Origin: Paracoccaceae bacterium | GTDB taxonomy: Bacteria; Pseudomonadota; Alphaproteobacteria; Rhodobacterales; Rhodobacteraceae | DNA: 40,354 bases | Assembly (NCBI GenBank): GCA_014879735.1 | Contig: JACSRN010000086.1 | Span: 1 to 40,354, forward strand | Direction: 5' to 3' | Made by a program: the position numbers and the translations under genes | Shown: piece after piece, positions 17,592 to 40,354 of the stretch | How the letters are laid out: each line of letters starts with the position of its first letter | Numbering within the stretch: the first letter of the stretch is position 1 | Notes under the pieces: generated by a model | What the model was told of the DNA's origin: nothing | Seen by the model: only the letters and a program-made list of their open reading frames with translations | Database searches by the model: none

Positions 17592-17789
17592 TCAGGCCTC
17601 CCCCATGGCCTTGCGCAGCGAAAGCGGGCGCATGTCGACCCAGACCTCGTTGATGTGATCGAGACAGGCCTGCTTGCCGCCGGTGAACCCGGTGGCCGTC
17701 CAGCCCGCCGGCAGATCGCGCCCCGCCGGCCAGATGGAATATTGCTCTTCGTGGTTCATCACGACCTGATAGTCGGTGTCGGCGTTCAT
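17592..17789 (-). CDS. MbtH family protein
   Basis: A 65-residue MbtH-like chaperone with the family signature: NHEEQYSIWPAGRDLPAGW, then GFTGG, then a HINEVWVDMRPLSLR tail. These proteins bind NRPS adenylation domains and are needed for solubility or full activity of many of them. The ATG at 17789 has AAGGAG 7 bases upstream inside the end of the amidase gene, and overlaps the amidase stop by 4 bases (ATGA). It is the last gene of the NRPS operon. Its presence suggests that at least one adenylation domain of synthetases A-C depends on it. Confidence 0.95.
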   Translation of the reverse strand: MNADTDYQVVMNHEEQYSIWPAGRDLPAGWTATGFTGGKQACLDHINEVWVDMRPLSLRKAMGEA

Positions 17790-19174: not shown

Positions 19175-19902
19175 GCGCCCAGCTCCCGCAGTCGGGCGGG
19201 AACCGCCAGCCCCGGCTCATGCAGGAAGAAATGCCCGCCGGGGAAAAGATGCATCTCGCCGGGGTGGCTGCTTTCGTCGAACCAGCGCGGCAGGGTCTCC
19301 AGCGGCACTTCGAGGTCATCCTGCGACGCGAAGACGTGAAGCGGCACCGGCAGGCGTGGCATGGTGCGGTAGACATACCCGTTCAGCATTGCAAAATCGG
19401 CGCGCAGCATGGGGGTCAGCAACCGCATCAACTCGTCATTGCCCATGACCTCGGGCGGGGTGCCGCCCAGATCGTTCAGCCGGCTGCGGAAGGCGCTGTC
19501 GTCAAGAAGGTGCAGGTCGTCGCGCTCCAGCGCCCCGGGCCAGCGGCAGCCGGAGACCACCATGAGATCGGGCCGTCGCAGGTGCATCATCGTGCAGATG
19601 CGCAACACTTCGAAGGCGAGAACCGCGCCCATCGAATGGCCGAAGAAGGCGAAATCCGCCGCGCCGGCATTGGCGGTGACGGCCGCAGCAATCTGCAGGG
19701 CGGCGGGGCGCATCTCGGTCAGCGATGGCTCTTTCAACCGCAGGCCGCGCCCCGGCAGGTTCACCACCGACAGCGCGGTGTCGGGTCCCAGCGCCCGGGA
19801 CCAGTCGATGAAGGCGGCGGGATTGCCGCCAAGATAGGGGAAGACATAGAGCCTGCGCCGCGCCTGCGGCTTGGGCACCTCCAGCAACCAGGGCGAAGCC
19901 AT
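19171..19902 (-). CDS. Type II thioesterase (GrsT/RifR-like)
   Basis: A 243-residue alpha/beta hydrolase. It begins with the family's YVFPYLGGNPAAF oxyanion segment, has the nucleophile elbow GHSMG, an acidic residue in FASQDDLEVP and the final His in FPGGHFFLHE, completing the triad. Stand-alone enzymes of this type clear mis-primed or stalled acyl groups from carrier domains. Its ATG shares one base with the stop of the ABC exporter gene (TGATG), and its stop overlaps the amidase start by 4 bases. It is separate from the two integrated thioesterase domains in synthetases B and C. Confidence 0.94.
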   Translation of the reverse strand: MASPWLLEVPKPQARRRLYVFPYLGGNPAAFIDWSRALGPDTALSVVNLPGRGLRLKEPSLTEMRPAALQIAAAVTANAGAADFAFFGHSMGAVLAFEVLRICTMMHLRRPDLMVVSGCRWPGALERDDLHLLDDSAFRSRLNDLGGTPPEVMGNDELMRLLTPMLRADFAMLNGYVYRTMPRLPVPLHVFASQDDLEVPLETLPRWFDESSHPGEMHLFPGGHFFLHEPGLAVPARLRELGA

Positions 19903-21506
19903 CAGGCGGCCTCCTGTTCCGGCTGCACGATCCTGCCATCGACCAGTTTCACCACCCGGTCGGCGCAGCCGAAATAGGCATCGTCATGGGTGATGACGAA
20001 GACCGCCTTGCCGCGTGCCTTCAGCTCGGGCAACAGTTCGGTGTAGAACACCGCCTTGAAGACCGGGTCCTGATCGGCCGCCCATTCGTCGAAAAGATAG
20101 ACCGGGCGGTCTTCGAGATAGGCCGAGACCAGGGCAAGCCGCTTGCGCTGGCCGGTGGACAGGCTGGTGGTGCTGAGACAGCCATCCCGCACCGTGACCT
20201 TGTGCGACATGCGAAAAAGCGCGATGAAATGGCGCGCTTTCGCCTCCATCTCCGGATCGTCGCTGCCCGGAAGCTGTTCGAACAGGTGAAAATCGGAAAA
20301 TACCGCTGAAAAAATCTGGCGATAGCTGGCCTGCATGGCCTCTGTTACCGGCAAGCCATCGACCTCGATCTTACCGCTTTCGGGGCGGTAAAGCCCGCAA
20401 AGCAGCATGGCCAGCGTGGTCTTGCCACTGCCGTTGCCACCCGCGGCGAAGACCACCTCGCCGCGCCGGAGGACGAGGTCGATGGGCCCAAGCGTGAAGA
20501 CGCCATCCTCGGCCTCGGTCATGTAGCTGTGGGTCACGCCGCACAGGACAATACGGTCCTGCAGCTGCAGCGGTGGCGGCAATGCGGCGGCGGGGTCCAG
20601 TTCGGCCTGCAGCTGCTCGATCCGGTCCAGCGCCACGACGGATTGGCGGATGGCCGGCAGGCTGATCATCACCTCACTGACCGGCCGCACGAGATAGAGC
20701 ATGAGAAGTACCGCCGGCAGCATATCGCGCATCGTCACCCCGGGCATGAGGAACAGCACGACGCCGATGACCAGATAGAACAGGCTGTTGCCGATATTGA
20801 CGACCCAGATATAGGACGACATCGCCCCGGCGTATTCGCGCGCCACCCGGGCGGCGGCGGGGCCAATCACCCGGTCGATGTAATGCGCGCCGCGCGGGCC
20901 GTTGAGCTGCAACTCCTTCGCGCCTTCGATCAGGGCGCGCTGCCGGGTATAGAGTTGGTCGATCTCTTCCCGCAGCCGGAAAATTCGGGCAATTGGCCGA
21001 CGCTCGGCCAGTTTGAACAGGCCGGCCCCGATCAGCAGACAGGCAAAGACGGCGACGCAGATCTGCCAATCGACCCAGGCGAGATAGGCGAAACAGCCAA
21101 AGACCAGCAGCAGATTGCCGATCAGGAGCGGCACCAGTTGAACCGCATTCACGAAAGTATCCATGTCGCGGGTCAGGATGGTCAACAGCGGCTGGCGCCC
21201 GATCTGCTGCAGCCGGATCTGGGGCGTGGCCAGCAACCGCCGCGCCAGGGCAAGCCGCATGCCCAGCAGCACCCTTTGCGTCAGCCGGATCAGCCAGACT
21301 TCCGAGAATACCCGCAGCGTGAAATGCATCGCGGCGGCAGCGAAAAAGGCCACCGCCAGCACGGCGCTCCGGCTGTCTGCCTCCAGTGCGCGGCTGATCA
21401 CGATGGCCATGATCGCAGCCCCCGCCCCGCTGGCAAGGCTTGCCAGGACCGACAGCGCGGCCCCGCCGGGCTCGGCCCGGAACAGCGTGACCAGCATGCG
21501 GTTCAT
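19902..21506 (-). CDS. Cyclic peptide export ABC transporter (PvdE/SyrD-like)
   Basis: A 534-residue fused ABC exporter: six hydrophobic helices in the first ~300 residues, then a nucleotide-binding domain with Walker A (GGNGSGKTT), signature LSTGQRKRLAL, Walker B with VYLFDEW and the switch ITHDD. The LSTGQ signature and FDEWAADQDP are characteristic of the PvdE/SyrD/cyclic-peptide transporter group. It acts in the inner membrane and probably exports the peptide or its precursor to the periplasm. The ATG at 21506 overlaps the phosphopantetheinyl transferase stop by 4 bases; longer in-frame starts would run within that gene and give an Arg-rich non-homologous extension. Confidence 0.93.
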   Translation of the reverse strand: MNRMLVTLFRAEPGGAALSVLASLASGAGAAIMAIVISRALEADSRSAVLAVAFFAAAAMHFTLRVFSEVWLIRLTQRVLLGMRLALARRLLATPQIRLQQIGRQPLLTILTRDMDTFVNAVQLVPLLIGNLLLVFGCFAYLAWVDWQICVAVFACLLIGAGLFKLAERRPIARIFRLREEIDQLYTRQRALIEGAKELQLNGPRGAHYIDRVIGPAAARVAREYAGAMSSYIWVVNIGNSLFYLVIGVVLFLMPGVTMRDMLPAVLLMLYLVRPVSEVMISLPAIRQSVVALDRIEQLQAELDPAAALPPPLQLQDRIVLCGVTHSYMTEAEDGVFTLGPIDLVLRRGEVVFAAGGNGSGKTTLAMLLCGLYRPESGKIEVDGLPVTEAMQASYRQIFSAVFSDFHLFEQLPGSDDPEMEAKARHFIALFRMSHKVTVRDGCLSTTSLSTGQRKRLALVSAYLEDRPVYLFDEWAADQDPVFKAVFYTELLPELKARGKAVFVITHDDAYFGCADRVVKLVDGRIVQPEQEAA

Positions 21507-22177
21507 GCCGGGCCCCGGACGCAAAGGGTGGTGCAGCCCTGCGGCCCCAGATGCCAGAACACCGTCTCCCCCTGCCCTGCCCATGCCAGATGCAGCCGGT
21601 CCGGCGCCCAGCCGGCCAGAGTGACCTCGTGAAAGTCGAGCATGCGCCCGGCTTCGGCGGCAATCGCCTTGTAGAAGGCCTCCTTGGCGGAAAAGACCAC
21701 GGTGAGAAAGTGCCCGAAAGCCATGCCCGCGGGTTGTGCCGCAGCATCGCCGGGCGCAAGAATCTCGCGGGCCAGTGCCGGGGCCTCGGTCTCGGGGATC
21801 GGCTGCTCGCAATCGACGCCCAACTGCCGGAAAACCCGCGAGGCTGCGGCCACGGCGCGGCGGTCGTCATGGCTTATCGACCCGGCGATGCCCGGGGGCC
21901 AGACCGGCGCGCGGCCCTGCCGGCCGAGCATTTCCGGCGCGACCAGCCGCCGCAACACATGTGCCGCAGCCAGCCGCCCGGCAAGATATTCGCGCCGTCG
22001 CTTCGGCACGGCGCCGGCCAGATCATCGGGCAATGCGATGTGAAAGGTGCCCTCCGGCCCGATCGTGCAGGCGGACAGCCCGGTGGGGTTGGACGGCAGC
22101 GCGTCAAGCGCCAGCTCTGCCCAGAGCAGGCTGGGCAGCGCGAACGGGCCGGAGGTGGAGATGCCGATGTCGATCAT
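21503..22177 (-). CDS. 4'-phosphopantetheinyl transferase (EntD/Sfp-type)
   Basis: A 224-residue enzyme that attaches the phosphopantetheine arm of CoA to carrier-domain serines, turning apo-synthetases into active ones. Family marks: RRREYLAGRLAAAHVLRRL (CoA phosphate binding), GSISHDD, the Mg-binding pair Asp and Glu in GVDCEQ, and FSAKEAFYKA. It is the EntD-like subgroup, typical of siderophore and peptide clusters. The coding frame overlaps the methyltransferase before and the exporter after by 4 bases each. It presumably serves the seven or so carrier domains of synthetases A-C. Confidence 0.94.
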   Translation of the reverse strand: MIDIGISTSGPFALPSLLWAELALDALPSNPTGLSACTIGPEGTFHIALPDDLAGAVPKRRREYLAGRLAAAHVLRRLVAPEMLGRQGRAPVWPPGIAGSISHDDRRAVAAASRVFRQLGVDCEQPIPETEAPALAREILAPGDAAAQPAGMAFGHFLTVVFSAKEAFYKAIAAEAGRMLDFHEVTLAGWAPDRLHLAWAGQGETVFWHLGPQGCTTLCVRGPA

Positions 22178-23442
22178 GATGCAAGCAGATACGGGAAGGC
22201 CGGGGTCGTAAGCAACTGGCGCAGCCGGGTTATCTCAGCCTCTCCCGGCAACGGGCCAAGATGGGACAATACCTCGGCCATGCTGCGGCTGCCGTCGCAG
22301 GCCTGAAACACGGCGCGCACCTGCGGGTCGGCCGGCACTGCCGGCGCCGGCAGGCGGGTTCTGCGCGGGCTGGATGTGTAGCGGTCATCCGCGCCCAGGA
22401 CATGGATCTGCGTATCGCATTGGGCGGGGCGGAACCGCCGGCCCAGGAAATCGGCATTCACCTCGTCGCGGCTGCGGCGTGCGGGGCCATGGCCAAGATA
22501 GAACCACAGCATCGGTGCGCGCTCCTGCATCAGCAGATTGGCCACCTGCCACCGCGCCAGATCGTCAAGCCGCCCGAAGGCGGTGGCAGCGGTGCCGTAC
22601 AACGGCGGCTCCCATGAAAAATCGCCCGAGATCTTGTCGAACTGATTCAGGCAGGGGTGCAGCAACACCAGACCGGCCCCGCGACATAGCGCGGCAAGGG
22701 TTTCAACGGTATAGCTGAATTCCACCGGCTGCAGCAGTGAATCGGCAACGGCGGGTTCGGGCAGACCCCGTTGCCGGGCCAGAAAATCGGCCATGCTGCC
22801 CGGCAGGGCAAAATCGGCAACCATTTCCAGCGCCATCGGCAGTTCGGCCTCGACCAGCCCGCCACGGCCGTGCGTGCCGGACAGCAGGCGGATCGCTTTC
22901 TGGAACGCGGTGGTCTGAATGCGGTGATAATAGTTGTAGACCATCAGTTCCATCACGCCGCCGGGTTTCAGCGCGCGGGCCAGATGGGCCAGTGGCCGGG
23001 CCGGATCGGCATTGTGATGGATGACGCCGGTGCAGATGATGTGATCAAAGGCTGCAACATGATGCGGCGCGTTCAGGCTGGCCTGCTCCAGCCGCAGATT
23101 GGTCAGCGCCAGATCACGCGCCGAAGCCTCGGCCACGGCCAGCGAGCGTTCCGAAAGATCGGTCCCCAGCACCCGCGCGCCGGGAAAGCGCAGCGCCGTG
23201 ATGACAGCCTGATTGGTGCCGCAGCCGGCCACCCAGATATCGCCGTCCGGCGGCACCGCACGGCCGTCGAAATCGCCCGCCTCCTGGCACAGGAAGCGGG
23301 GGGCGAAGGCCGGGTCGCGATATTGCGTCAGGCTCGGTGCCCGCCAGGGATAGTTGAAGCGGCCATAGAATTCGGCATTGATCCGGTCGATCTCGGCGGC
23401 ATCAAGGTTTTCTGCGGCGTTGAAGGAAAGATAATCTGTCAC
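22174..23442 (-). CDS. SAM-dependent methyltransferase with C-terminal extension
   Basis: A 422-residue protein. Residues about 60-200 form a class I methyltransferase: DIWVAGCGTNQA (motif I), GTDLSERSLAVA (acidic ribose-binding residue), FDHIICTGVIHHNADP (motif IV region) and LKPGGVMELMVY. About 220 further residues follow, including a small helical terminal unit (VRAVFQACDGSRSMAEVLSHL) that I do not recognise. The start is a GTG at 23442 whose GTGA overlaps the stop of synthetase C by 4 bases; longer in-frame starts lie wholly inside synthetase C. It may methylate an N, O or C of the peptide or polyketide portion, or a carrier-bound intermediate. The target is unknown. Confidence 0.85.
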   Translation of the reverse strand: MTDYLSFNAAENLDAAEIDRINAEFYGRFNYPWRAPSLTQYRDPAFAPRFLCQEAGDFDGRAVPPDGDIWVAGCGTNQAVITALRFPGARVLGTDLSERSLAVAEASARDLALTNLRLEQASLNAPHHVAAFDHIICTGVIHHNADPARPLAHLARALKPGGVMELMVYNYYHRIQTTAFQKAIRLLSGTHGRGGLVEAELPMALEMVADFALPGSMADFLARQRGLPEPAVADSLLQPVEFSYTVETLAALCRGAGLVLLHPCLNQFDKISGDFSWEPPLYGTAATAFGRLDDLARWQVANLLMQERAPMLWFYLGHGPARRSRDEVNADFLGRRFRPAQCDTQIHVLGADDRYTSSPRRTRLPAPAVPADPQVRAVFQACDGSRSMAEVLSHLGPLPGEAEITRLRQLLTTPAFPYLLAS

Positions 23443-26400
23443 TCGGCGGCGGTCCTGTCGGCCTGGATCATCAGACGCGCGATCCCGGTGGCCAGCGTGG
23501 TGGCCTGGGCACCCTGCAGGATGCCGAAGTGATCGGTATCGAGATGATCGGTCACAAGTCCCGGCAGCAAGGCCTCCCATGCCGCATGCCGTTCGGCGAG
23601 GCTGCCCTGGTCGCGGGCCAGCCACAGCCTGGCGGGCAGGGCGACGGGGTGTCGGGGCGCATAGCTTGCAAGCGCCCGGCAATTCCGTGCCCAGACCCGG
23701 CGCAGCGCCTGCAGATAGGGTTGGCTGGCCGGATCGGTACCATCCGCAAGGCCAAGCGCGCGGCGGCAGGCGATCTCGGCCAGAAAATCCCCCTCGTCCA
23801 CCGGCGCAGTCTGATGCGGCGCCGGCGGGTCGATCAGGACAAGGCCCAGCACCCGACCGGGAGCCTGGGCCGCCATCTCATAGGCCAGCACCCCGCCATA
23901 GGACCAGCCGCCCAGCCAGACCGGCCCCTCGGGCAGCCGCGCCAGAAGGGCCGTGGCCTGCGCCCGCAGACCGGCTTCGGACAGGCCGGCATCCTGCAGC
24001 GCCGGATCCTCCAGCGCCAGGATCGCCACGCCGTTGCGCATCTCCTGTGCCAGCCGCCGGTATGATGCCACATCGCCCCCGACCGGATGCAGCAGAACCA
24101 GCGGCGGCATGCGGCCCGGTCGCAGGCTGACCGCGCCGCCGTTTGCCGCGGCGGCGGCATGCGGGGCGGCCAGCGCCAGGGCCAGGTCGTTCAGGCTCAG
24201 CCGGCCCGACAGCAGCGCTGCGGGCGGTTTCCGGCCCAGCCGCCGCTCCACCTCGTCCAGCAGGTCGAGCGCAAGCAGCGAATCGCCGCCCAGATCGAAG
24301 AAGGACGCTTCGGGATCGACGCTCTGTTGTCCCAGGAACCCGGCGAATATCTGCGCCAGATCGGCGGTTGCGGTCGCGGTGGCAAGTGGCAGGTCGGGCA
24401 GCGGATCCAGCTGCATTGGCAGGTCGGGCGGCAGGGGCGCGACCACCAGTTGCGGCAGGCCAAGCGCAATGGCGCGGCGCAGGACGCGCATGCCTTCCTC
24501 CACCGTGATCGATTGCGCGTCGAGCCGGCGGGCAAGATCAGCCATCCGCCCGCCCGCCGCCCGAACTTCGGCCGCCATGCCGATGCCGCGCCAGGCGGGC
24601 CAGGCGACCGAGATCACCCGCGGCCCTTCGCCCTGCGGCAGGCTGTCGGCGAAGGCGTCGAGCCAGGCATTGGCGGCGGCGTAATCCGCCTGTCCCGCCG
24701 CGGCCTGATGGGCCGACAGCGAAGAGCAGAGCAGGATGAACCCGTCGGTCAGCGGCGCCAGGTGGCGCAGCAGTGCCAGGGCACCGCTGCGCTTGGGCGC
24801 CAGCGTCGCGGCAAAGCCTTCGGGCTGCATCAGGGGCAGCGCCCGTCCGCCCGCGAGGCCGGCCGCATGGATGATACCGGCCAGCCGGGTACCGCTGCCG
24901 GCCAGATCGGCGGCCAAAGCCGCCAGAGCGGCGGGGTTGGTGACATCGGCGCGCAGATGGCGGATGCCGGCCCCCCCGATCCCGGCGCCGCGCCGCGACA
25001 GCAGCAGGACATTGCGGGCCGGATCGGCGGCGATCGCCTCGGCCATGGCTGCCGCAATCCCGCCACTGCCGCCGGTGATGAGATAGGTTCCGGGCGGCAG
25101 ATCGGCCTCCGCTCCGGTCCATGTCGGCGCCGGTGCCGGGGCAAGGGTTGCTTCGAACACCCGGCCGGCGCGCAGGGCGACAAGCCGGAAGGGCGCGGCA
25201 TCGGCGACCGGCAGCTGCCCTGCTGCGGCCGCATCGACGAGGCCGGTCCGCAAGCCCGGCAGTTCTGCCGCCGCCGCGCGCAAGAGGCCCGCCAGCATGG
25301 CCCGGTCGGGATCAATGGTGCCTTCCGGACCGAAGGCGCCATTGACCTGTACCCAGAGCATCGCCCCCGCATCGCGCAGCCGCCGGCCGTCCTGCCCCAG
25401 CAGAGCAAGCGTTGCAGCAACGGGATCGGCGGTGTCGCGCAGGTCAAGTACCAGCTCGGCGCCTTGCGGCAGGACCCCGGGCAGCGGCGCATGGGCGGCA
25501 AGGATTTGCCGGTCCGCCGCAACGGACGGGCTGCCGCAGCGCCGCCAGATCGGTTGCAGGAACCAGTCGTCGAAAGCCTGTCGCGCAGTCTGCACCGCCG
25601 GACTGCCCGACAGCAGGGGGTGGATATAATCGCGGCAATCGAAGCTGTAGGGCGGCAGATTCCAGGCCGCACCCGGCTCTGCTTCGGGCAGGGCTGCCAC
25701 CGCCAGCCCGTCGCACCAGGCGCGGGCCAGATCGGCGGCAGCGCTGGGGGCCGGGCCGGCTTTTCGGCCCTTAGCCCGGGGCGTCGCGAGGTCGAGCGCC
25801 GCCACCGCCGCTTCTGCGCTGGCCGCAACCACCGCCGCGCGCCAGGGCAGCGCATCGCGCAAGCCGCGCCGCAAACCGGCCGCCGTTGCGGCAAGATCGC
25901 CCCCCGCCGCCAGATGATCGGCCACGGCCATCAGCCGCGCCCGCAGCGCCGGCTCGGAATGGGCGGCGAAAAGCAGCAGGTGGTCGCGTGCGGGATCGCG
26001 CCGGGCCTTGCCCTGCCCATGGGTCGGGGCCGGCCCGACAATCACATGGGCATTTGTCCCGCCGATGCCGAAGCTGGAAATACCGGCCAGCGGCCGGTCG
26101 GCGGGCCATGGTCGGGCAACCGATGCGACGGTGAAGGGCAGGCGAGCGAAATCCAGCGCCGGATGCGGCACGGCAAAGCCATGGGTCGGTGGCAGGCTGT
26201 CCTGCATCCGGCCCAGGACGGTACGGATCAGCCCCGCCACGCCGGCGCCCGATCCCAGATGGCCGATCTGGCTTTTCACCGAGCCGAGCCCGACCGCGCC
26301 CGCCGGTTGCCCGTCGAAGATTGCCGCCAGCGCCTCGACTTCAATCGGGTCGCCCAGGGCCGTGGCGGTGCCATGCGCCTCGACATAGCCGATGTCGCCG

Positions 26401-29400
26401 GGCGCGGCCCCGGCGGCGGCCAGTGCCGACGCGATCACCGCCTGCTGTCCCTGTACCGAGGGCGCGGCGAAGCCGACCTTGCGCCGGCCGTCGTTGTTGA
26501 CCGCGCTGCCCTCGATGATCCCGAGGATACGGTCGCCCGCCGCTTCGGCCGCCGCCAGCGGTTTCAGCACCACCAGACCCCAGCCACTGGCCGGAACCGT
26601 ACCGCTGGCCCGGTCGGAAAACGGCGCGCAATGGCCATCGGCGGAATAGATATGCCCGGCCTGATGCGCATAGCCGGACGCGGCTTCGAGATCGACGGCA
26701 ACGCCACCGGCGATGCAGGCGGCGGCCTCGCCCCGCTGCAGAAGACCACAGGCCTGGTGCACTGCAACCAGCGAGCTGGAACAGGCGGTCTGCACGGTCA
26801 GCGCCGGGCCCCGCAGGTCGAGAAGATGGGCAATGCGGGTTGCGAGGAAGTCCTTTTCATGGATCATCGCCAGCGCCTGGTCCGGAATATCGGCATCGGG
26901 ATGCCGTAGAAGCCCGCGGTAATAGCTGCTTTCGCTGCTGGACAGGACAAGGCCGATCTGCGGGTGCTGCGCGGGATCGATGCCGGCGTGATCCAGCGCC
27001 TGGACCGCCCCCATCAGCAGATGGCGTTGCTGGGGGTCCATCAGCAGGGCATCGCGGGCGGTCAGCCCGAAACCGGCCGGATCGAAGGCTGCCGCACCGT
27101 CCAGCATGGCGACAGCATTCACATGGCCGTCGTGTCGGGGCGGCGCGATGCGGATGGCCTCGGCCCCCGACTGGATCAGCGACCAGTAGGCGGCAAGGTC
27201 GGCAGCGCCCGGCAGGCCGACCGCCATGCCGATGATCGCGATCCGGCCATCTGCCGGGGCTGCCTGGCCGTGGGTGGGGGGGGCCGACGCCGGTTGTGGC
27301 ACCCTGATCCGGTCGATATGCGCGGCAAGTTCGGCCAGCGTCGGGAAGCGGAAAAGATCGACCATGGTGAGCGTTGGGGCCAGATCGCGCAATTGGCCAT
27401 GCATCCGCATCAGCGCCAACGATCCCGCGCCCGCATCGAAGAAATGCAGATCCGGCGGGATGTCCTGCCCCAGCACCTCGGCAAAGACCCGGGTCAGATG
27501 CGCGATGGTTCCTGCGGCTGCAGCCGGGTGCTGCGGCGGAAGTATCCCCACATCCGGCAGTGCCGCGCGGTCCACCTTGCCCGAGGGCGACAGCGGCAGG
27601 CTGGCCTCGGCAAGGATTCGGGCCGGACGCAGATGGGCCGGCAGGGTCGCGGCCAGTTCCGCGGCCAGCGCGGCCCGGTCCACGCTGGTCGGGGTGACGA
27701 AGGCCACCAGATGTTCCCCCCGCGCCACAACCGCCGCTGCCGCGACATCGGGCCGCCGCAGAATGGCCGCCTCGACCTCGCCCGGCTCGATCCGGTAGCC
27801 CTTCAGCTTGATCTGGTCGTCGGTGCGACCAAGAAAGACCAGATCGCCCGACTCGAGCCGCATCGCCAGATCGCCGGTGTGATAGCTGACCTCGCCCTGT
27901 GAATCGGGGCGGAAGCGTTCGGCCGTCAACTCGGGGCGGTGCAGATAGCCGGGGGCCACACCGAAGCCGCCGATCACCACCTCGCCGGCCACGCCGGTGG
28001 CAGCCGGGCTGCCATCGGGGCGGCGCACCGACAGACGCATCCCCGCGATGGCGCGGCCGATCGACATGGCGCCACCATGCGCCGGAACATCGCCGCGCCG
28101 TGCCCAGGCGGTGGCACAACCCACCACCGTTTCCGTAGGCCCGTATTCATTGACCACCGCGGCCCCCGGCAGCAGATCCAGCAGCCGTGCCACGGTCGGC
28201 GCCGGCAGTTGTTCACCCCCCACGACGAACAGGTGCGGTGTCGCCGCCTGCCGCCCGCCGGCATGGGCCAGCAGCGCCGCGACATGCGACGGCGTGATCT
28301 TGAAGAGCAGCGGCTCGGCGCCGAAGGCCAGTTCGGCCAGTGCCGGGATCAGCTCGCCTGCGACGACATCGACCCGGCGCCCTGCGGCCAGCGGCCCGAG
28401 AAGCGTCGTCACCGTGGCGTCGAAATTCAGCGAGGTGCCGACAATGCCAGCCACGAGCGGCCCGCTGGCGAAATAGGCTGTGGCAACGTGGTCAAGATAG
28501 TTGCCCAGCCCGCGATGCGACACAGGCACGCCCTTGGGTCGGCCGGTCGAGCCCGAGGTGAAGATGACATAGGCGATCCGGTCCGGATCATGAGGTGGCA
28601 GCGGGGCAGTCCCCTCGCCTTCGGGGGGGTGGCAGGTCACATGCGCGGGCAGTGCGCCGCTGCCATCGCTCATCACATGGGCAATGCCGGTATCGGCGAT
28701 GGCGATGGCCAGCCGCGCCGCCGGATAATCCGGGTCGAGCGGGACATAGGCCGCCCCGGCCCGCAGGATGCCCAGAACCGCCGCGACCATGGCAATGCCC
28801 GGGCGGAGCGAGACCCCGACCGGATCGCCGGGCTGCACCCCCGCCGCCAGCAGCCGCGCGGCAATGCCCTGCACGCGCCGGTCAAGCCCGGCGCGGCTCA
28901 GGCTTTCGCTGCCATGCTGCAGCGCAATGGCCTGCGGATCCGCCTGCCGGTCGGCCTCGATCCGCGCCAGCAGATCGAAGGTGGGCTGCAGGTCGGCGAC
29001 GGTGGCCGCATCTGCCGCCAGGGCCTGCAGCACCTCTGAATAGATCAGCGCCATCCGCCGGACGAAATTGGCGTCGAAGCGGGTCAGATCATGCTCGATC
29101 TGGCAGGCAAGGCCATCGTCCTCGGCTGTCACGAACAGCGTCAGCGGAAAGCGCGGCACCACGCGGTCGGGGAAACGGAAACGGGCGTCGAGACCGGGCA
29201 GGCGGTAGTCGGTGTTTTCCAGAACGAACATCGTGTCGAACAGGCCGCCCCGCTGCCCGGCCGTGCGCAGATCCTCGACCATATGGTCATAGGCCAGATC
29301 ATACGCGGCACGCATGGTGCGGATCTCGGCACCGGCACCGGCAAGCCAGTCGTCCAGGCGGGCCGCGGGATCGACCTGAAAGCGGCACAGCTGGGTGTTC

Positions 29401-31838: not shown

Positions 31839-34800
31839 TTCGCCCCCTCCGGCGGCATCAGCCGCCCATCCAGCACCTGCGTGATGATCCGCCCGATCCG
31901 CGCCACATCAGCGCCTTCCAGCAGGGTGGAATGGTCCCCGCCGGTGATCTTGAACAGGAACGGCCCCTGCGCCCGCAACTGCCAGAAGAAGCGCAGCAGC
32001 CGCAGCTGCATGCGGTTGCGTCCGGCAATGGCCTGCACCAGCACGATCCGGCCGCGGGTGCTGCGGAACTCCCACCGCCGCGAACACAGCGTGTTGTGAT
32101 TGTAAAGCGCGTGATACTGCGCAACCTGCGCATCGTCGATGCCGGGATACATGCCGTTATAGGTGATCAGCTTGTGGCGGAATTCGTCGGCATCCGAGGT
32201 GCGGTCATCCTGCCGGATCGCCGGATCGTCGCTGCCCATGGCATCGAGAAGCACGGCGGTCACATGGGTGATGCCGCGCCGCTCCAGCCGCCGCACCATC
32301 TCGAAGGCGACAAAGCCGCCGAACGATGCGCCGGTCAGCACACAGGGACGATCAAGCAGGTGTTCGACAAGGCCGATGTAATGGTCGGCCATCGCGCCGA
32401 TGTCGGGCAGAAAGCCGTCGTCGGGGTCAACCCCTACCGATTGCACCCCCCAGACGCCCAGATGTGCCGGCAGCGCGCGCGCCAGCGACAGATAGCCATA
32501 GGCCGTTCCTCCGGCCGGATGGATGCAGATGACATGGGCCTTGCCCTTGCCCGGCCGAAAGCAGACCGGATTGACCGATTGGCTGCGCCCGCGGCCCTCG
32601 CGGAGCAATGCCGCCAGCGCCTCGATGGTCGGGTTGGCGATGATCTCGGTCGTGGCCAGCGCGGTGCCGAAGGCCGCGTTGATCTGGTGGATCGTCTTGA
32701 TCGCCGAGAGGGAATTGCCGCCGATATCGAAGAAGCTGTCGCGCAGCCCGATATCGGGATGCAGCAGGACCGAAGACCAGATGTCGTAGAGCCGATGTTC
32801 GATCGCATCGCGCGGGCTTGCGGTATTCACCTGCCGCAACCCACCGCTGTCAAGCGCGGCCAGCGCCCGGCGGTCGACCTTGCCACGTTCGGTCAGCGGC
32901 AGATCGTCAAGCCAGACAAAGCGGTCGGGCAGCATGTAGCTGGGCAGCACCCGCGCCAGCGCCTTCTGCGCCCGTTCCTGCAGGCTGTGGCGGTCCTGTC
33001 CCACCTCGGCCACGGCAAAGGCCACCAGCCGCTTGTCGCTGCGCGTCGCCAGGTCGACAAAGGCCGCGCGGATGCCGGGCTGACGCAACAGTTCCGCCGC
33101 CACCTCCTGCGGTTCGATCCGGTAGCCGCGAATCTTTACCTGAAAGTCGTTGCGGCCCAGGCAATCAATCAGCCCATCGGGGCGCCACCGCGCCAGATCG
33201 CCGGTGCGGTAGAGCATTTCATGCCCGGGCGTGGCGAAGGGATTGGCGACATAGCGCTCGGCGGTCAGTTCGGGCCGGTTCACATAGCCGGGCCCGACAT
33301 AGGGACCTGACAGGCACAGCTCGCCCACGATGCCCTCGGGCACCAGATGGCCGCGGGAATCGAGGATATAGCAGTTGGTATTGCTGTTCGGCCGCCCGAT
33401 CGGTGGCGGTTCGGTATCTGCCGGCCCCAGGACGTGATGCACGGTGAAGACCGATGCCTCGGACGGGCCGTAGATGTTCAGCAGCGGCAGACCGCGGTCG
33501 CGCGGCAGGCAATAGCCCTGCAATCGGTCACCGCCGGTGCAAACCCATTCCACCGATGCCGGCAATTGCAGACCGGCCGCGCACATCGCCTCCATCAACC
33601 CGGTCGGCAGCCAGAAATGCGTGGGCTGCATCCGGTCCGTTGCGGCCTGCAACAGGTCGCGGTCGCGCAGCACCGCATCCGACTGGAAACCGAGCGTGCC
33701 GCCCACCGTCAGCGTCGGCCAGATTTCCCAGATGATCGCGTCAAAGGCCGGGTTGGCCGAGACGGTGTGAACCGAGCGGCTGGTGATGGCGCAAAGCCGG
33801 GTCTGGAACAGGCAAAGGTTGTAAAGGCCCAGATGCGTGTTCAGCGCACCCTTCGGCTGGCCGGTGGTGCCGGAGGTGAAGACGATATAGCTGATCTCGC
33901 CCGGCGGAAAGTCGGGATCGGCCGGACTTTCATCACGCCAGCCGTCATCCAGGTCGATGGCAATGGCACCGGAAAGCGCCTGCGCCGCCGCTTGCGCCGA
34001 GGTGGTCAGAACCACCCGCGCGCCGCAATCCTCCTGCATGCGGCGAATCCGCTCCGGCGGGGTGTCGACCGGCAATTGCGCCGGTGCGGCGCCCGCCTTG
34101 TTGGCTGCCAGCAGGGCGATCACCATTTCCGCGCAACGGCCGGTGGCAATGCCCACCGGCGCATCGGCGCAGAGACCCAGCCGATGAAGATGCCGCGCCA
34201 GCCGGTTGGCTGCGGCATTGATCTGGCCATAGGTCAGGCGCCGGTCGCCCTCGATCACGGCCAGCGCGTCGGGGGTTTCGCGCGCCCACCGTTCGAACTG
34301 GCGGAAAGGTTCCGGCGGGTCGGTCAGCGGGATGATTTCGCCCCGGCCCATCTCCAGCAGGTTTGCCGCCTCGGCCGGCGAAACCACGGGCAGATCGCCA
34401 AGCCTGGTGTCTGGTGCGGCCGCCAACCCCTCCAGCAGCGACAGGAAACCCCGGTTCAGCCGCCCCACGCCTTCGGCGGTAAACAGATCGGTCGCATAGG
34501 ACCAGTCCAGATGGATCGTGTCATCGCCGTCCAGAACCGCCAGCGACAATTCGTATTTCGCCGGGGTCACATCGGTTTCCAGCGTGCGAAACTGCAGCCC
34601 GGCGGGCGCGGGCGCGGCCGGTTCGGGCCGGGTGAGCGAGAAGGCCAGTTGCACCAGCGGTGCGCAGGACAGGCTGCGCGGCGGGTTCAGCCGCTCGACG
34701 ATCAGTTCGAACGGCAGATCCTGATGCGAGAAGGCTTCGGTCACGCCACGGGCGCATTCCTGCAGGAAGGTGCGGAACGACAGGTCCGCCGCGGGCCGGG

Positions 34801-35881
34801 CGCGCAGCGGCACGGTATTGACCAGAAATCCCACCAGCGATTTCAGTTCGGCCCTCTCGCGCCCGGCGACGGGCGTGCCGACCACCAGGTCTTCCGCCCC
34901 GGACCAACGGTGCAGCAGCGCGACATGGGCCGCATGCAGTAATGTAAAGAGACTGACGCCTTCGGCACGCGCCAGGGCGCGCAGGCGGTTGGCCAGGCCC
35001 GGATCGAGCCGCGCCGCCAGCCGCGCGCCGGTGCTGCCGATCACCGGCGGACGCGGCCTGTCGGTCGGCAGGTCATGAACATCGGGCACACCGTCCAGCG
35101 CGGTGGCCCACCAATCGGCCAGCGCTTTGCCGCGCCGGTCGAGCAGGCGCCGCTGCCACCGGGCATAATCGGCAAACTGCAGCGCCGGAGGCGGAAGTGC
35201 CTCGCCAGCATAGAGACGCGCCAGATCGTCAAGCAGGACCGCATTCGACCAGCCGTCTGTGGCGATGTGATGCAGCGTCAGGAACAGCACATGCTCCGTT
35301 GCGGCAAGCCGCACCAGGCGCGCCCGCAGCATCGGTTCCGCCGACAGGTCGAAGCGATGCTGCGCCTCTTCCCGGCCAAGATCGACCAGCCGCACGGCGG
35401 CTGCGGGATCCTCCGACAGGTCGGTGAAGCGCAGGTCGACCGGGGCGGCAGGCAGCAGGTGCTGCATCGTGCCCTCGGCGGTATCGCGAAACACCGTGCG
35501 CAGCGCCTGATGGCGTTCGACCAGCCCCGACACTGCCCGCCCCAGTGCCGCGCCATCGAGCCGGCCCGAAACGGCCAGCGCCATCGGCACGGCATAAAGC
35601 CCCGCCGCCGCCTCCATCTGCTCGATCACCCAGAGCCGCGATTGCGAGAAGGCGAGCGGCTCGTTCCCGGCGGGCGGGCCGGGCAGGATGGCGTCGTCCT
35701 GCGCCGCCGCATCCTCGGCCAGGCGGGCCAGCCAGTCGATGATCGCCGGCTTCTGCATGCGGATGCGGTCCAGCAGGGCGGGCGGTACGCCGCCACGGGC
35801 GGTGACGGCCAGCGCACCGTCCTTCAGCCAAATGCGGATCCCGGCACCGTGAGCTTCGCGCAGGATATCGGCGATGGTCAT
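31835..35881 (-). CDS. NRPS synthetase B (TubC docking-C-A-PCP-TE)
   Basis: A 1348-residue single-module terminating synthetase. Residues 1-52 are a TubC-type N-terminal docking domain (ILREAHGAGIRIWLKDGAL). C domain 75-500 has FSQSRLWVIEQ and HHIATDG (204-210), an LCL-type look. A domain 520-1010 has FTSGTTGQPKG and Lys1001 in the A10 motif; its pocket residues read about DAWFVTIVFK, which I cannot match to a known amino acid. The PCP serine is Ser1057 (FDIGGNSL). TE 1110-1345 carries Ser1186 (TGASFGG), Asp1213 and His1317 (GGDHSTLL). It overlaps synthetase A upstream and C downstream by ATGA. It should receive a chain from A by docking and release it by hydrolysis or cyclisation. Confidence 0.95.
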   Translation of the reverse strand: MTIADILREAHGAGIRIWLKDGALAVTARGGVPPALLDRIRMQKPAIIDWLARLAEDAAAQDDAILPGPPAGNEPLAFSQSRLWVIEQMEAAAGLYAVPMALAVSGRLDGAALGRAVSGLVERHQALRTVFRDTAEGTMQHLLPAAPVDLRFTDLSEDPAAAVRLVDLGREEAQHRFDLSAEPMLRARLVRLAATEHVLFLTLHHIATDGWSNAVLLDDLARLYAGEALPPPALQFADYARWQRRLLDRRGKALADWWATALDGVPDVHDLPTDRPRPPVIGSTGARLAARLDPGLANRLRALARAEGVSLFTLLHAAHVALLHRWSGAEDLVVGTPVAGRERAELKSLVGFLVNTVPLRARPAADLSFRTFLQECARGVTEAFSHQDLPFELIVERLNPPRSLSCAPLVQLAFSLTRPEPAAPAPAGLQFRTLETDVTPAKYELSLAVLDGDDTIHLDWSYATDLFTAEGVGRLNRGFLSLLEGLAAAPDTRLGDLPVVSPAEAANLLEMGRGEIIPLTDPPEPFRQFERWARETPDALAVIEGDRRLTYGQINAAANRLARHLHRLGLCADAPVGIATGRCAEMVIALLAANKAGAAPAQLPVDTPPERIRRMQEDCGARVVLTTSAQAAAQALSGAIAIDLDDGWRDESPADPDFPPGEISYIVFTSGTTGQPKGALNTHLGLYNLCLFQTRLCAITSRSVHTVSANPAFDAIIWEIWPTLTVGGTLGFQSDAVLRDRDLLQAATDRMQPTHFWLPTGLMEAMCAAGLQLPASVEWVCTGGDRLQGYCLPRDRGLPLLNIYGPSEASVFTVHHVLGPADTEPPPIGRPNSNTNCYILDSRGHLVPEGIVGELCLSGPYVGPGYVNRPELTAERYVANPFATPGHEMLYRTGDLARWRPDGLIDCLGRNDFQVKIRGYRIEPQEVAAELLRQPGIRAAFVDLATRSDKRLVAFAVAEVGQDRHSLQERAQKALARVLPSYMLPDRFVWLDDLPLTERGKVDRRALAALDSGGLRQVNTASPRDAIEHRLYDIWSSVLLHPDIGLRDSFFDIGGNSLSAIKTIHQINAAFGTALATTEIIANPTIEALAALLREGRGRSQSVNPVCFRPGKGKAHVICIHPAGGTAYGYLSLARALPAHLGVWGVQSVGVDPDDGFLPDIGAMADHYIGLVEHLLDRPCVLTGASFGGFVAFEMVRRLERRGITHVTAVLLDAMGSDDPAIRQDDRTSDADEFRHKLITYNGMYPGIDDAQVAQYHALYNHNTLCSRRWEFRSTRGRIVLVQAIAGRNRMQLRLLRFFWQLRAQGPFLFKITGGDHSTLLEGADVARIGRIITQVLDGRLMPPEGAK

Positions 35882-38800
35882 AGCAGGATGGTCTCCGTCT
35901 CGGCGGTTTCGTCTTCGGGCTGGGGGGCCGGCATCGCCATGGCATCGGCGGCGACAGCCAGCGCCGCCACGGTCGGATCGGCCAGGAACAGGCGCAGCGA
36001 CAGGGTCACACCCATCTCGCGCTGGATCTCGGCCAGCAGGCGCAGCGCCAGGATAGAATGGCCGCCGATGGCGAAGAAGCCATCCGTGACCCCGATCTGC
36101 GGCTGACCCAGCAGCCGCGCCCAGATCGCGGCGATGGTGGCCTCTGCCCGGCTGCGCGGTGCGACAAGGGCGCGCGGCGCTGCGGCGGGTGCGGGCAAGG
36201 CGCGGCGATCGACCTTGCCGTTGGCGGTGACGGGCAGTGCCGCCACCGGCACGATGACCGCGGGCAGCATATGGGCAGGCAGGCGCCGCGCCAGGGCGTC
36301 GCGCAGCGCGTCGGGGTCGTGGATCCCCGCCACCCAGGCCAGCAGCCGCGTGGTATGATCCGGCCCGGTCTCCGCCATGACCACCGCCTGATCCGCGCCT
36401 TCAGCCCTGAGCGCGGCCTCCACCTCGCCGGGTTCGACGCGGAAGCCGCGAATCTTCACCTGGTCGTCGGCCCGGCCGAGGTAATCCAGCGCGCCATCGG
36501 GCCGGAAGCGCGCAATGTCGCCGGTGCGGTACATCCTTGCGCCGGGCGGGCCGAAGGGATCGGGCAGAAAGGCGGCGGCGGTCAGGCCCGGGCGCCCGAC
36601 ATAGCCCCGCGCCAGGGCAATGCCGCCGATGTAGAGCGCACCGCTGACCCCGGGCGGGACCGGAACCAGCGCGGGATCCAGCACATACATCCGCACATTG
36701 GCAATGGCATGGCCGATGGGCACCTGATCGCCGGTGTCGTCGGGCGTGCAGGTCCAGGCCGTGACATCGACTGCCGCCTCGGTCGGACCATAGAGGTTGT
36801 GCAACGCCACCCCGGGATGGGCGCGATGGAATGCTGCCTGGGTGGCCCGCGGCAGCGCCTGGCCCGAACAGACAACCATCCGCAGCGAGGACAGCGCCCC
36901 GGACCCGGGCGCCCCCCGGTCGAGGAAGGCCTCAAGCATCGGCGGTACGAAATGCAAGGCCGTCACCGCCTCTCGCCGGATCAGCGCTTCCAGATAGGCC
37001 GGGTCGCGATGTCCCTCGGGCGCGGCGATGACCATGGTTGCGCCGATCATCAGCGGCAGGATCAGTTCCCAGACCGATACGTCAAAGCCCAGTGGCGTCT
37101 TCTGCATCACCCGGTCCGCCGGTCCCAGCCCATAGGCCTCGGCCATCCACAGCAGCCGGTTCACGATGGCCCGATGCGGCACCGCCACGCCCTTCGGCCG
37201 CCCGGTCGAGCCCGAGGTGAAGATGACATAGGCGATATCGTCCGGCCGGCCCAGCGGTGCGGGATCGCTGGCGGGAAGATCGGCCGACTCATGATCTAGG
37301 CCGATCAGCATGACCTCCACCCCGGGCAGATCGGCCAGATGCGGCTGCGCAAGAACCAGCCGGGGGGCGGCATCCTCCAGGATCATCGCAAGGCGCGCAG
37401 GCGGGTAGTCCGGCGGCAGCGGCACCCAGGCGCCACCGGCCTTGAGAATGGCCAGGATCGCCACGATCATGTCGAAGGACCGCTCCACCGCCAGCCCGAC
37501 CCGGCTGTCCGGCCCTACGCCGCGCTGCCGCAGCGCATGGGCCAGCCGGTTCGCACGTTCGTTCAGCGCGCGAAAGCTCAGGCCTTCGCCGCCGAAGCGC
37601 AGTGCCGTGCGGTCGCCCTCGATGGCGATCCGGGTCTCGATGATCTGCGTCAGGGTCAGGCCGCCCGCGGCATATTGCTTTCCGGTGCGGTTCCAATGGT
37701 CAAGCTGCGCCAGATCGGCCACAGGGATCGGCAGTGCCGCCTGGTGGCAGGCATCGGGGTCGGCCAGCATGGCCTGCAGGATCGCGCCGTAGCTGTCGGC
37801 CATGCGTTCCACCAGATCCGCATCCAGCCGTGCCGGATCAAAGGCAAAATCGACCTGCAACCCCTGCAAGCCCAGGACCGCATTCACCCCGAGCGCAAAA
37901 TTCGTCGCCTCGAAGGCCGTCATGTCGCGCAGCGCCGGTGCGCCATCGGTGCCCTTGGCGCCCTGCAGCGCGTCATAGACATGGAAGTGGATGAAGTTGA
38001 AAATCACGTCAAAGGGCGGCACATGGCCGTTTTCTTCCACGATCTGCGCCAGCGGGTAATGGCGGTGCGCGGCAAGATCCAGTTCGGCGCGGAATGTCGC
38101 CCGGGCCAGGTCGCGCCAGCTTTCGCTGCCCAGCCGCAGGCGGATCGGCAGGGTATTGAGGAACAGACCCAGCACCTTCTCGCTGTCGCGCGCCTCGGGG
38201 CGGGTGTGGGTGACAAGGCCGGTCGTCACATCCGTGGCCCCGGCCCACAGCGCCAGCATCCGCATATGCGCGGCCAGCAACAGGCTGCGCAGCGGCAGGC
38301 CAAGCGCATCGGCCAGGGCCTGAAGCCCGGCCTGCACCCCGGACCCCGGGCGCAACTGCACCCGGCGCGGCGTACCGGCCGGACCGGCAAGCGGTGGCGG
38401 CAGGCGCAGCACCTCGGCACCCTCCAGCAGCGCGGCCCAGAAGGTGCGGGCCCTGTCCGATTGCAGCGCGGCCTGTTCGGCGGCGGCAGCCAATGCGGGG
38501 GTGCAGGCCAGCGGCGTGGCATCCGGCCGCTGCCCGGCCCGGACCTGACGCCAGGCCTGCATCAGCTCCACCTGCATGGCGGCCACGCTCCAGCCATCCA
38601 GGATTGCGTGATGGAACCCCAGGGTGATCTGCAGATCCGCCGGTCCGCGGCGATGCACCATAAGCCGCAGCAGCGGCGGCCGCGCGACGTCGAAGGGGCG
38701 GGCCTTTTCGGCCGCGATGGCGGCGGCGATCACCGCTTCGGCCGCAGCTTCGCCGATGGCCGACAGATCCTCGGTTGCCAGCGGGATTTCCGCCCGCGGG

Positions 38801-40354
38801 TGTATCTTCTGCTGCGGCCCGGTGGCGACCTGCAGATCAAAGCTGCTGCGCAGCACCGGATGCCGCGCAACCAGCGCTGCCAGCGCCGCACGAAAGGACG
38901 GCTCGTCCCATTCCAGCGCCAGGCGGAAGCTGAATACGTCATGATAGACCGCGGCAGAGGCGGAAGCCTCGCCATGAAACAGCATGCCCAGTTGCAGCCG
39001 CGTCATCGGCCAGCCGGTGTCGGAAGGCATCGGCAGATCGGCGGCGGCCGGCAGCACCGCGACCGGGCCTGCCGCGGCCAGCGCGCGGATGGTCTGGTGT
39101 CGAAAGATCGCTTCGACCGTGATGGGCAGGCCGATGTCCGCGGCCTGCGCGGCAAGGGTCACGGCGCGCATGGAATCCCCACCGCTGGCAAAGAAGTTGT
39201 CGGTGGCTCCGACACGTTCACGACCCAGCACCCCGGCCCAGATTGCCGCCAGCGCGATTTCGACATCCCCCTCGGGCGCCACGAATTCCGGCGATGCCGG
39301 GGCGGGATCGGGATCCGGCAGCGCCGCTGCATTTACCTTGCCATTGGTGGTCAGCGGCAGATGCGCAACCGCGACGAAGGCGGCCGGCAGCATGTAATCC
39401 GGCAGATTCTGCGCCAGCCCGGCCCGCAGCAGCGCCGGGTCCAGCCCCGAGACATGCCAGGCCACCAGCCGGTCGCCGCGCAGCCGGACGCAGGCGCCAG
39501 AAACCCCCGGCAAGGCGGCCAGCGCTGCCTCGATCTCGCCGGTCTCGATGCGGAAGCCGCGCAGCTTTACCTGTGCGTCGGCGCGCCCGACATAGTCGAA
39601 CCCGCCATCGGCCCGCTGCCGCGCCACATCACCAGACCGATACATCCGCGCGCCCGGCCTCCCCCAGGGGTCGGGCACGAAACGCTCGGCAGTCAGCCCG
39701 GGCCGGTTCAGATAGCCGCGCGCCACGCCCGGACCGGCGACGCAGATTTCACCGGGAATGCCCACCGGCACGGGGTGCAAGGCATCGTCCAGCAGCCGCA
39801 GCCGCAGGTCGGGCAGCGCAATGCCGATATCGGCCGGCAGCGGGTCCTCGGCGGTCAGCTCCAGATGGGTCACATGCACCGTGGTTTCGGTGATGCCATA
39901 CATGTTCACCAGCCTTGGCCGGCGGTCGCCATATTGCGCGAACCAGGGGGCCAGGGCCGCACGGTTCAGCGCCTCGCCGCCAAAGATGACATGGCGCAAC
40001 GCCAGGACGGGCGGCACCGCCTGCCGGGTGCAATGGGTGGCCAGCTGCTGGAAGGCCGAGGGGGTCTGGTTCAGCACCGTCACGCCTTCGCGCACCAGAA
40101 GGGCCGCAAATTCCGCCGGATCGCGGGTCACACCGCGCGGCACGATCACCAGCCGCCCGCCATGGATCAGCGCCCCGAAGATTTCCCAGACCGAGAAGTC
40201 GAAGGCAAAGGAATGGAACAGCGTCCAGACATCCTCGCTGCCGAAGGCGAACAGCGGCGCCGTGGTGACAAAGAGCCGGGCCACCGCCTCATGGGTTATG
40301 GTTACGCCTTTTGGTTTTCCTGTGGAGCCGGAGGTATAGATGACATATGCGGCG
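35878..40354 (-). CDS. NRPS synthetase A, 5' part outside the window (A-PCP-C-A-PCP)
   Basis: 1491 residues are visible; the gene continues past the right edge, which cuts A1 at its A3 motif (YTSGSTGKPKG). Numbering from the edge: A1 to about 345, pocket code read as DFWNIGMVHK, matching threonine; PCP1 with Ser394 (ASGGDSM); C domain about 445-885 with HHAILDG at 581-587 and an N-terminal MTRLQLGMLFH; A2 about 895-1390, code read as DVWHVSLVDK, matching serine; PCP2 with Ser1433 (IGGHSIL). The protein ends in an acidic tail rich in Glu and Thr, suited to bind the TubC domain of B. No TE or epimerase is present. A preceding C domain is expected upstream. Coding starts in the window at 40353; the true start and operon promoter are not visible. 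Confidence 0.93.
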   Translation of the reverse strand, partial: AAYVIYTSGSTGKPKGVTITHEAVARLFVTTAPLFAFGSEDVWTLFHSFAFDFSVWEIFGALIHGGRLVIVPRGVTRDPAEFAALLVREGVTVLNQTPSAFQQLATHCTRQAVPPVLALRHVIFGGEALNRAALAPWFAQYGDRRPRLVNMYGITETTVHVTHLELTAEDPLPADIGIALPDLRLRLLDDALHPVPVGIPGEICVAGPGVARGYLNRPGLTAERFVPDPWGRPGARMYRSGDVARQRADGGFDYVGRADAQVKLRGFRIETGEIEAALAALPGVSGACVRLRGDRLVAWHVSGLDPALLRAGLAQNLPDYMLPAAFVAVAHLPLTTNGKVNAAALPDPDPAPASPEFVAPEGDVEIALAAIWAGVLGRERVGATDNFFASGGDSMRAVTLAAQAADIGLPITVEAIFRHQTIRALAAAGPVAVLPAAADLPMPSDTGWPMTRLQLGMLFHGEASASAAVYHDVFSFRLALEWDEPSFRAALAALVARHPVLRSSFDLQVATGPQQKIHPRAEIPLATEDLSAIGEAAAEAVIAAAIAAEKARPFDVARPPLLRLMVHRRGPADLQITLGFHHAILDGWSVAAMQVELMQAWRQVRAGQRPDATPLACTPALAAAAEQAALQSDRARTFWAALLEGAEVLRLPPPLAGPAGTPRRVQLRPGSGVQAGLQALADALGLPLRSLLLAAHMRMLALWAGATDVTTGLVTHTRPEARDSEKVLGLFLNTLPIRLRLGSESWRDLARATFRAELDLAAHRHYPLAQIVEENGHVPPFDVIFNFIHFHVYDALQGAKGTDGAPALRDMTAFEATNFALGVNAVLGLQGLQVDFAFDPARLDADLVERMADSYGAILQAMLADPDACHQAALPIPVADLAQLDHWNRTGKQYAAGGLTLTQIIETRIAIEGDRTALRFGGEGLSFRALNERANRLAHALRQRGVGPDSRVGLAVERSFDMIVAILAILKAGGAWVPLPPDYPPARLAMILEDAAPRLVLAQPHLADLPGVEVMLIGLDHESADLPASDPAPLGRPDDIAYVIFTSGSTGRPKGVAVPHRAIVNRLLWMAEAYGLGPADRVMQKTPLGFDVSVWELILPLMIGATMVIAAPEGHRDPAYLEALIRREAVTALHFVPPMLEAFLDRGAPGSGALSSLRMVVCSGQALPRATQAAFHRAHPGVALHNLYGPTEAAVDVTAWTCTPDDTGDQVPIGHAIANVRMYVLDPALVPVPPGVSGALYIGGIALARGYVGRPGLTAAAFLPDPFGPPGARMYRTGDIARFRPDGALDYLGRADDQVKIRGFRVEPGEVEAALRAEGADQAVVMAETGPDHTTRLLAWVAGIHDPDALRDALARRLPAHMLPAVIVPVAALPVTANGKVDRRALPAPAAAPRALVAPRSRAEATIAAIWARLLGQPQIGVTDGFFAIGGHSILALRLLAEIQREMGVTLSLRLFLADPTVAALAVAADAMAMPAPQPEDETAETETILL
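37202..37236. repeat. 35-base exact direct repeat, copy 2 (A3 motif of A-A2)
   Basis: Second copy of the repeat at 28543-28577, same orientation, inside the serine-predicted adenylation domain of synthetase A. The right edge of the window falls in the same motif of a third A domain but with quite different synonymous codons. Confidence 0.85.

Follow-up and report, generated by a model that had tools for sequence, protein, structure and literature searches.

Why should a single operon carry two non-ribosomal peptide synthetase (NRPS) lines that each end in a thioesterase (TE) domain of their own? The question is raised by a 40,354-nucleotide stretch of DNA from a Paracoccaceae bacterium (GenBank assembly GCA_014879735.1, contig JACSRN010000086.1), here called the window, which is the whole of contig C186 in an assembly of 201 contigs (G000, the window's own genome). 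Three synthetase genes, A, B and C, follow one another there, and the initial annotation had taken A-B and C for two lines that either make two products or make halves joined later. Homology to detoxin/rimosamide-like (DRL) pathways supports the joining of halves, and we rate two separate products lower: by analogy with published clusters, it is quite probable that two convergent lines make one ester-joined lipodepsipeptide of DRL type, with hydrolysed halves as side products. A puzzling two-thioesterase operon thereby becomes a readable case of convergent assembly. All coordinates are window positions unless a contig or locus is named, and every window feature described lies on the minus strand.

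Two neighbouring synthetase genes and their relatives

Gene C (23439..31838) encodes a hybrid of NRPS and polyketide synthase (PKS) with the domain order A-T-C-A-T-KS-KR-T-TE (A, adenylation; T, carrier; C, condensation; KS, ketosynthase; KR, ketoreductase). Its first A domain (A1, 30354..31829) bears the specificity code DAFFLGCTFK, of Ile/Val type, DAFFLGVTFK having been associated with Ile/Val (PMC2533009), and its second (A2, 27543..28973) the Asn-type code DATKVGEVGK, reported elsewhere as predicting Asn (PMC3547906). The KS (25956..27248) has the active site Cys1686, His1822 and His1860, the KR (24429..25097) has Ser2373 and Tyr2386, and the TE (23484..24110) has the full triad Ser2646/Asp2670/His2770. 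An acyltransferase (AT) domain is absent from gene C, a feature that the initial annotation had not mentioned, and the GHSxG motif was missing from the KS-KR gap in all 11 proteins tested. Gene B (31835..35881), the last module of line 1, reads TubC-like docking domain (just below the Pfam cut-off)-C-A-T-TE, with the A-domain code DAWWCGIVFK and a TE (31886..32542) whose triad is Ser1186/Asp1213/His1317. Junctions A/B, B/C and C/methyltransferase are all 4-bp overlaps. The two full triads (each conserved in 12/12 aligned proteins, the window's included), the coupling of gene C to gene B and the opening of gene C with an A domain are thus as first described, and the residue codes given for A-B (Thr, Ser and one unassigned) and for C (aliphatic, Asn-type) also hold.

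Homologues of gene C were sought by alignment of its KS-to-TE part at a strict threshold (E 1e-200) in samples of 385 genomes of the class and 394 of the family, so that more distant relatives may be missed. Full-length homologues are present in Gemmobacter lutimaris (74% best-segment identity), in Frigidibacter sp. SD6-1, on two Serratia plasmids and on Streptomyces and Streptantibioticus plasmids, and further ones in two other genomes of the class sample and one other genome of the family sample. All 12 gene C-type genes examined, the window's among them, share the same domain order, and each is preceded by a C-A-T-TE gene. Catalytic residues of the T, C, KS and TE domains, together with the KR Ser and Tyr, are conserved in 12/12, and the KR Asn in 10/12 (it departs in cattl and mirab); the KS/KR motifs of str1176, cattl, mirab and G272 deviate slightly from the search patterns, with the catalytic residues otherwise intact. 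The A1 code reads DAFFLGxTFK throughout (12/12), and the A2 code divides the set into eight genes of Pro type (DVQ...; those of Serratia, the streptomycetes, G225 and G272) and four of Asn type (DATK[VI]GEVG; those of the window, Gemmobacter, Frigidibacter and G602).

Published hallmarks of the DRL family are a TauD-like dioxygenase, GSCFA/PipF-like genes and the hybrid layout (PMC12828459, PMC9503745, PMC8302735), the GSCFA/PipDFG acetylation genes being described as present in some but not all published DRLs (PMC12828459). Protection of Bacillus against blasticidin S by the product is a trait of DRL clusters. Six of the eight Pro-type loci, namely G225, G272 and four from streptomycetes, are confirmed as DRL because TauD lies in the locus; five of them, all except L063, hold GSCFA and PipF-like genes too, and the peptide lines of G225 and G272 have seven modules, like that of pseudovibriamide. 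The window cluster shares with the family an AT-less hybrid, a preceding C-A-T-TE gene, a first hybrid residue predicted by its code as Val/Ile, and the grouping of its KS: in two trees the gene C KS falls within the homologue clade (11 rows in one, 12 in the other, each against 19 other KS rows) with support of 100/100, where the DRL label of the set comes from architecture and the rows are all from clusters other than the chemically characterised ones. Judged by its domains and its KS, gene C is a synthetase of the DRL kind, and the two-TE layout, which had been called unusual for one operon, is already explained in principle by DRL biosynthesis, in which two TEs are the regular arrangement.

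Each of the two Serratia plasmids, both conjugative, holds a DRL-like cluster of two genes, a C-A-T-TE gene and a Pro-type hybrid (L044:15808-28931 and L045:9219-22341), annotated only as non-ribosomal peptide synthetases. A serrawettin-like single-module logic, considered for this pair, was dropped after the streptomycete loci with TauD and GSCFA emerged, and thalassospiramide, zeamine and laxaphycin were dropped as models for their other architecture.

Joining of the two lines

In published DRL pathways it is the first TE that forms the joining ester, placing the peptide on the beta-hydroxyl of the second line's product (PMC12828459, PMC9503745, PMC12911931), which makes one joined depsipeptide the most likely outcome here too. 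In Pseudomonas, full-length products are reported to be lost, and both halves to build up, once the PipB TE is deleted or its Ser replaced by Ala, and the acyl carrier protein of the AT-less hybrid PipC to be loaded by FabD from primary metabolism (PMC12828459). Raising pppDEF, and with it the amount of hybrid enzyme, led to more joined product in Pseudovibrio (PMC12911931, PMC11796379, PMC10616845), and for miramide MirG (C-A-T-TE) is proposed to pass its chain to the MirE-bound precursor (PMC9503745). The gene B TE clusters with the TEs of the C-A-T-TE genes ahead of the other gene C homologues, and a TE tree separates B-type from C-type domains (11 versus 11, support 98/96); three long end branches were flagged, of which two belong to the outgroup, as was a questionable joining of long branches inside the set. 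A comparison of both TEs with the PDB returned distant TEs only, none of them named as a DRL TE. Tree grouping, triad and published relatives together point to the gene B TE as the most likely candidate for esterifying the beta-hydroxyl that the gene C product would carry.

Along such a route, line 1 (contigs C160 and C14 of the same assembly, followed by genes A and B) would begin with a fatty-acyl-AMP ligase (FAAL) that loads a fatty acid, and the chain would grow to an acyl-octapeptide bound to gene B's final T domain. In line 2, gene C would join an aliphatic residue (Ile/Val) to an Asn-type residue and extend the dipeptide by C2 from a malonyl unit loaded in trans, most likely by FabD, after which KR reduction would turn the ketone into a beta-hydroxyl. 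Held by the gene B TE as an acyl enzyme, the acyl-octapeptide would then pass to this hydroxyl, and the gene C TE would free either the final product or its own half. These steps together predict an N-acyl-octapeptide in ester linkage with an Ile/Val-(Asn-derived) gamma-amino-beta-hydroxy acid, in which the residues are read from A-domain codes alone, and the ester transfer, the trans-loading by FabD and any antidote activity are argued from published relatives. Supply by FabD would fit the AT-family matches counted over whole genomes, since the sole match in Frigidibacter (G101) is a short frame of 363 amino acids; the window's genome and Gemmobacter lutimaris (G100) each have one short frame and one match inside a long PKS frame.

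Among the known pathways, pseudotetraivprolide pipA-H of Pseudomonas entomophila (PMC12828459) is described with a peptide NRPS ending in an ester-forming TE and an AT-less NRPS/PKS hybrid with a TE of its own, Ile/Val as the hybrid's first residue and FabD as trans-AT. It has a tetrapeptide arm, Pro in the hybrid, the PipE dioxygenase and PipDFG acetylation, whereas the window cluster has eight modules with a FAAL, the Asn-type code, no TauD and a methyltransferase. Pseudovibriamide pppA-P of Pseudovibrio (PMC12911931, PMC11796379, PMC10616845) is likewise alphaproteobacterial, with TEs in modules 7 and 10, a 4'-phosphopantetheinyl transferase (PPTase) and a type II TE among its core genes, and a plasmid location that is likely in Gemmobacter lutimaris as well; it differs in its ureido heptapeptide arm and the prolyl dipeptide of its hybrid part. 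In the miramide, rimosamide and detoxin clusters of Streptomyces (PMC9503745), a C-A-T-TE gene also stands beside an A-T-C-A-T-KS / KR-T-TE unit lacking an AT, but the arm is short (at most three A domains in actinobacteria) and the core is Pro-derived detoxinine, hydroxylated by TauD and acetylated. Chitinimide chm of Chitinimonas koreensis (PMC8302735) resembles the window cluster in the eight A domains of its peptide arm and in its hybrid core gene chmD, and differs in the ureido linkage of the arm and a TauD-like gene, chmJ. The side-chain transfer of FR900359 by the FrsA TE (PMC7794379) is alike in mechanism only: there, too, a type I TE unites the products of two NRPS lines by intermolecular transesterification, but the core is a cyclic depsipeptide from another NRPS.

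Two independent products would result if the gene B TE hydrolysed or cyclised the lipo-octapeptide and the gene C TE released a separate dipeptidyl beta-hydroxy acid. Both triads are intact, Ser and Thr side chains are on hand for cyclisation, and published relatives, too, yield both halves in free form (Pseudovibrio PA and PC; Pseudomonas 1a and 3b); in a Microbulbifer relative, the peptide half was the only form detected, despite a hybrid gene. We nevertheless judge this alternative unlikely, because unrelated products would not need neighbouring genes: the adjacency of B-type and C-type genes, found in 12/12 cases, spans alphaproteobacteria, gammaproteobacteria and streptomycetes, and it persists even where line 1 is only a single module, as on the two Serratia plasmids and in the annotated loci L055 and L064. 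The grouping of the gene B TE with the TEs of DRL loci also speaks against it.

Far less probable is a single linear A-B-C line whose gene B TE either lacks activity or passes its chain to gene C. Translational coupling of the genes in this very order would suit such a line, but gene C opens with an A domain and offers no C domain to accept an upstream chain, and the gene B TE triad is conserved in 12/12; the initial annotation, too, had held a collinear line to be unlikely, from the A-domain start of gene C and the full triad of the gene B TE. It had looked to a described cluster of this architecture, with a single product needing both TEs in one line, as evidence to the contrary; such a cluster does exist, but there an ester links the two lines, which do not form one collinear line. 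Least probable of all is an amide formed by the gene B TE between the lipo-octapeptide and the amino group of the gene C product, which by architecture would have a free N-terminal amine (no C or FAAL ahead of A1), given that characterised or proposed relatives carry an ester to the beta-hydroxyl and that a hydroxyl-making KR, with Ser and Tyr intact, is present in 12/12 homologues.

Several observations besides the Microbulbifer result weigh against the ester-joined DRL-type product. Gene C is 36% identical to the Serratia homologue over its full length, and it lies on a deep branch, so that its function could have shifted. The second hybrid residue, Pro in DRLs, is predicted to be Asn-type here, and the middle of line 1 is absent from the assembly. 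A TauD-like dioxygenase is said to occur in all known DRL clusters (PMC12828459), yet the TauD family (PF02668) had no match in the whole genomes of the window's strain, Gemmobacter lutimaris and Frigidibacter, and tblastn with TauD found none in the cluster loci of these three and of G602; the one PF02668 match of G602 is on a contig other than the cluster's. Missing TauD is not unique to Asn-type clusters, since the Pro-type Serratia plasmids show none either: for AGR_495 it was found neither in the (incomplete) gene table over four record-spanning stretches nor by tblastn there, and for pQC19 tblastn gave no match in the 42 kb examined. Because a gene stated for all DRL clusters did not turn up, we class the cluster as a variant that functions in the manner of DRLs and not, strictly speaking, as a detoxin/rimosamide cluster.

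Line 1 beyond the window

Gene A (35878..40353) opens inside an A domain at the contig end and has its 5' part outside the window; the window being a complete contig, the gene is truncated, and the description of both lines as complete fails for A-B. Its visible domains are A (partial, Thr code DFWNIGMVHK)-T-C-A (Ser code DVWHVSLVDK)-T. Nor do genes A and B now resemble a self-contained Thr-Ser-X line: they look like the tail of an eight-module, lipid-started one. The last 69 bases of the window (40286..40354), which are the first 69 read from gene A and form the edge of a T-C-A stretch, duplicated and left unassembled, that interrupts line 1, are identical to the start of contig C14 (8,590 bp), and the end of contig C160 is identical to the last 69 bases of C14 (positions 1-69 and 8522-8590 of L008, which is C14, and 19931-20000 of L009, which is C160). 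Because these ends coincide, line 1 very probably runs upstream over C14 and C160, through the T-C-A stretch. The simplest path is C160 - repeat - C14 - repeat - C186, an order drawn from the shared ends, with the T-C-A stretch present twice and omitted by the assembler. The same order is supported by the assembly of Gemmobacter lutimaris, which breaks alike, with 127 identical bases at its contig ends.

On this path, line 1 would read FAAL-T-C-A-T-C-A-[T-C]-A-T / C-A-T-C-A(MT)-[T-C]-A-T-C-A-T / C-A-T-TE, where the bracketed parts are inferred and might conceal more. Eight amino-acid A domains are visible along C160, C14 and genes A and B, and residues beyond the Thr and Ser codes are weakly assigned, among them those of the second A domain on C160, the second and third on C14 and the one in gene B. 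The N-terminal 671 residues (L009:11987-14000) match best PRK05691, a general NRPS/PKS model (487 bits), and also match several fatty-acyl-AMP ligase models (at most 371 bits), all of these matches lying under the full-length cut-offs. As in FAAL-started lipopeptide synthetases, the N-terminal FAAL and a carrier stand ahead of the first C domain, and this FAAL-T-C order opens line 1 in three of the four Asn-type genomes (the window's, Gemmobacter lutimaris and Frigidibacter), the start not being seen in G602.

Some further features of these contigs deserve mention. The edges of the duplicated T-C-A stretch have a GC content of about 50% inside a gene of about 70%, which suggests a module fragment recently acquired and duplicated. 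Contig C9 of Gemmobacter lutimaris (80 kb; L027, L047-L049) has both ends inside the cluster and bears a ParA-type gene and a borderline ParB-type gene, which makes a circular plasmid of at least about 90 kb the probable site of the cluster. On Frigidibacter contig C11 (L050 3-8087, minus strand), no A domain is present in the first elongation module (FAAL-T-C-T-C-A), although the frame is open; the module might be either loaded in trans or skipped. Ahead of the FAAL gene on C160 (L009:5286-11818) lies an oligopeptide ABC importer operon (SBP_bac_5, permeases, oligo_HPY ATPase) followed by an M24 peptidase gene, and a similar importer stands beside the gene C homologue of G272 (contig C11, L061:3015-8566). 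DRLs are suspected of blocking peptide importers (PMC12828459), but Gemmobacter has genes of another ABC type ahead of its FAAL gene, and oligopeptide importer operons are common.

The Asn-type branch and its accessory genes

In the KS tree, one branch parts Asn-type from Pro-type sequences (support 98/94), and the four Asn-type members form a fork of 91/82 inside the DRL KS clade. G602 belongs to the window's family, and Gemmobacter lutimaris and Frigidibacter are Paracoccaceae. Queries with GSCFA and PipF-like proteins gave no tblastn match in the cluster loci of these four genomes; a single GSCFA protein is encoded elsewhere in the window's genome, in Gemmobacter lutimaris and in Frigidibacter, in the last on the contig of the FAAL gene, at a distance of about 79 kb from it. 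The open-access papers searched held no Asn-type or FAAL-started DRL, which is no proof, and within them the Asn-type, lipid-started branch appears to be new.

We lean, with moderate confidence, towards a separate DRL branch in Paracoccaceae and their kin that would make lipidated octadepsipeptides on an Asn-derived gamma-amino-beta-hydroxy acid in place of detoxinine. With Pro replaced, dioxygenase and acetylation would have been lost or never there, the methyltransferase would tailor the core, and the product would be a new antidote chemotype whose lipid perhaps keeps it at the membrane. A branch of Asn type, TauD-less and lipid-started, would join a family of natural antibiotic antidotes. 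Since its core is no longer Pro-derived but the joining TE and the Ile/Val residue are retained, the branch can serve to find out what portion of a DRL activity depends on, and how wide a choice of acceptors ester-forming TEs tolerate.

Downstream of gene C, a stand-alone methyltransferase gene (22174..23442), whose GTG start overlaps the gene C stop, adjoins the gene C-type gene in 4/4 Asn-type clusters. It is followed by genes for a PPTase (21503..22177), a cyclic peptide-type ABC exporter (19902..21506; TIGR01194, above cut-off), a stand-alone, type II-like thioesterase (19171..19902), a conserved amidase-signature enzyme (17786..19174) and an MbtH-like protein (17592..17789). PPTase, exporter, stand-alone TE and MbtH-like protein accompany the methyltransferase in all four Asn-type clusters and the amidase in three; possible targets of the amidase include the side chain of Asn and the joined product.

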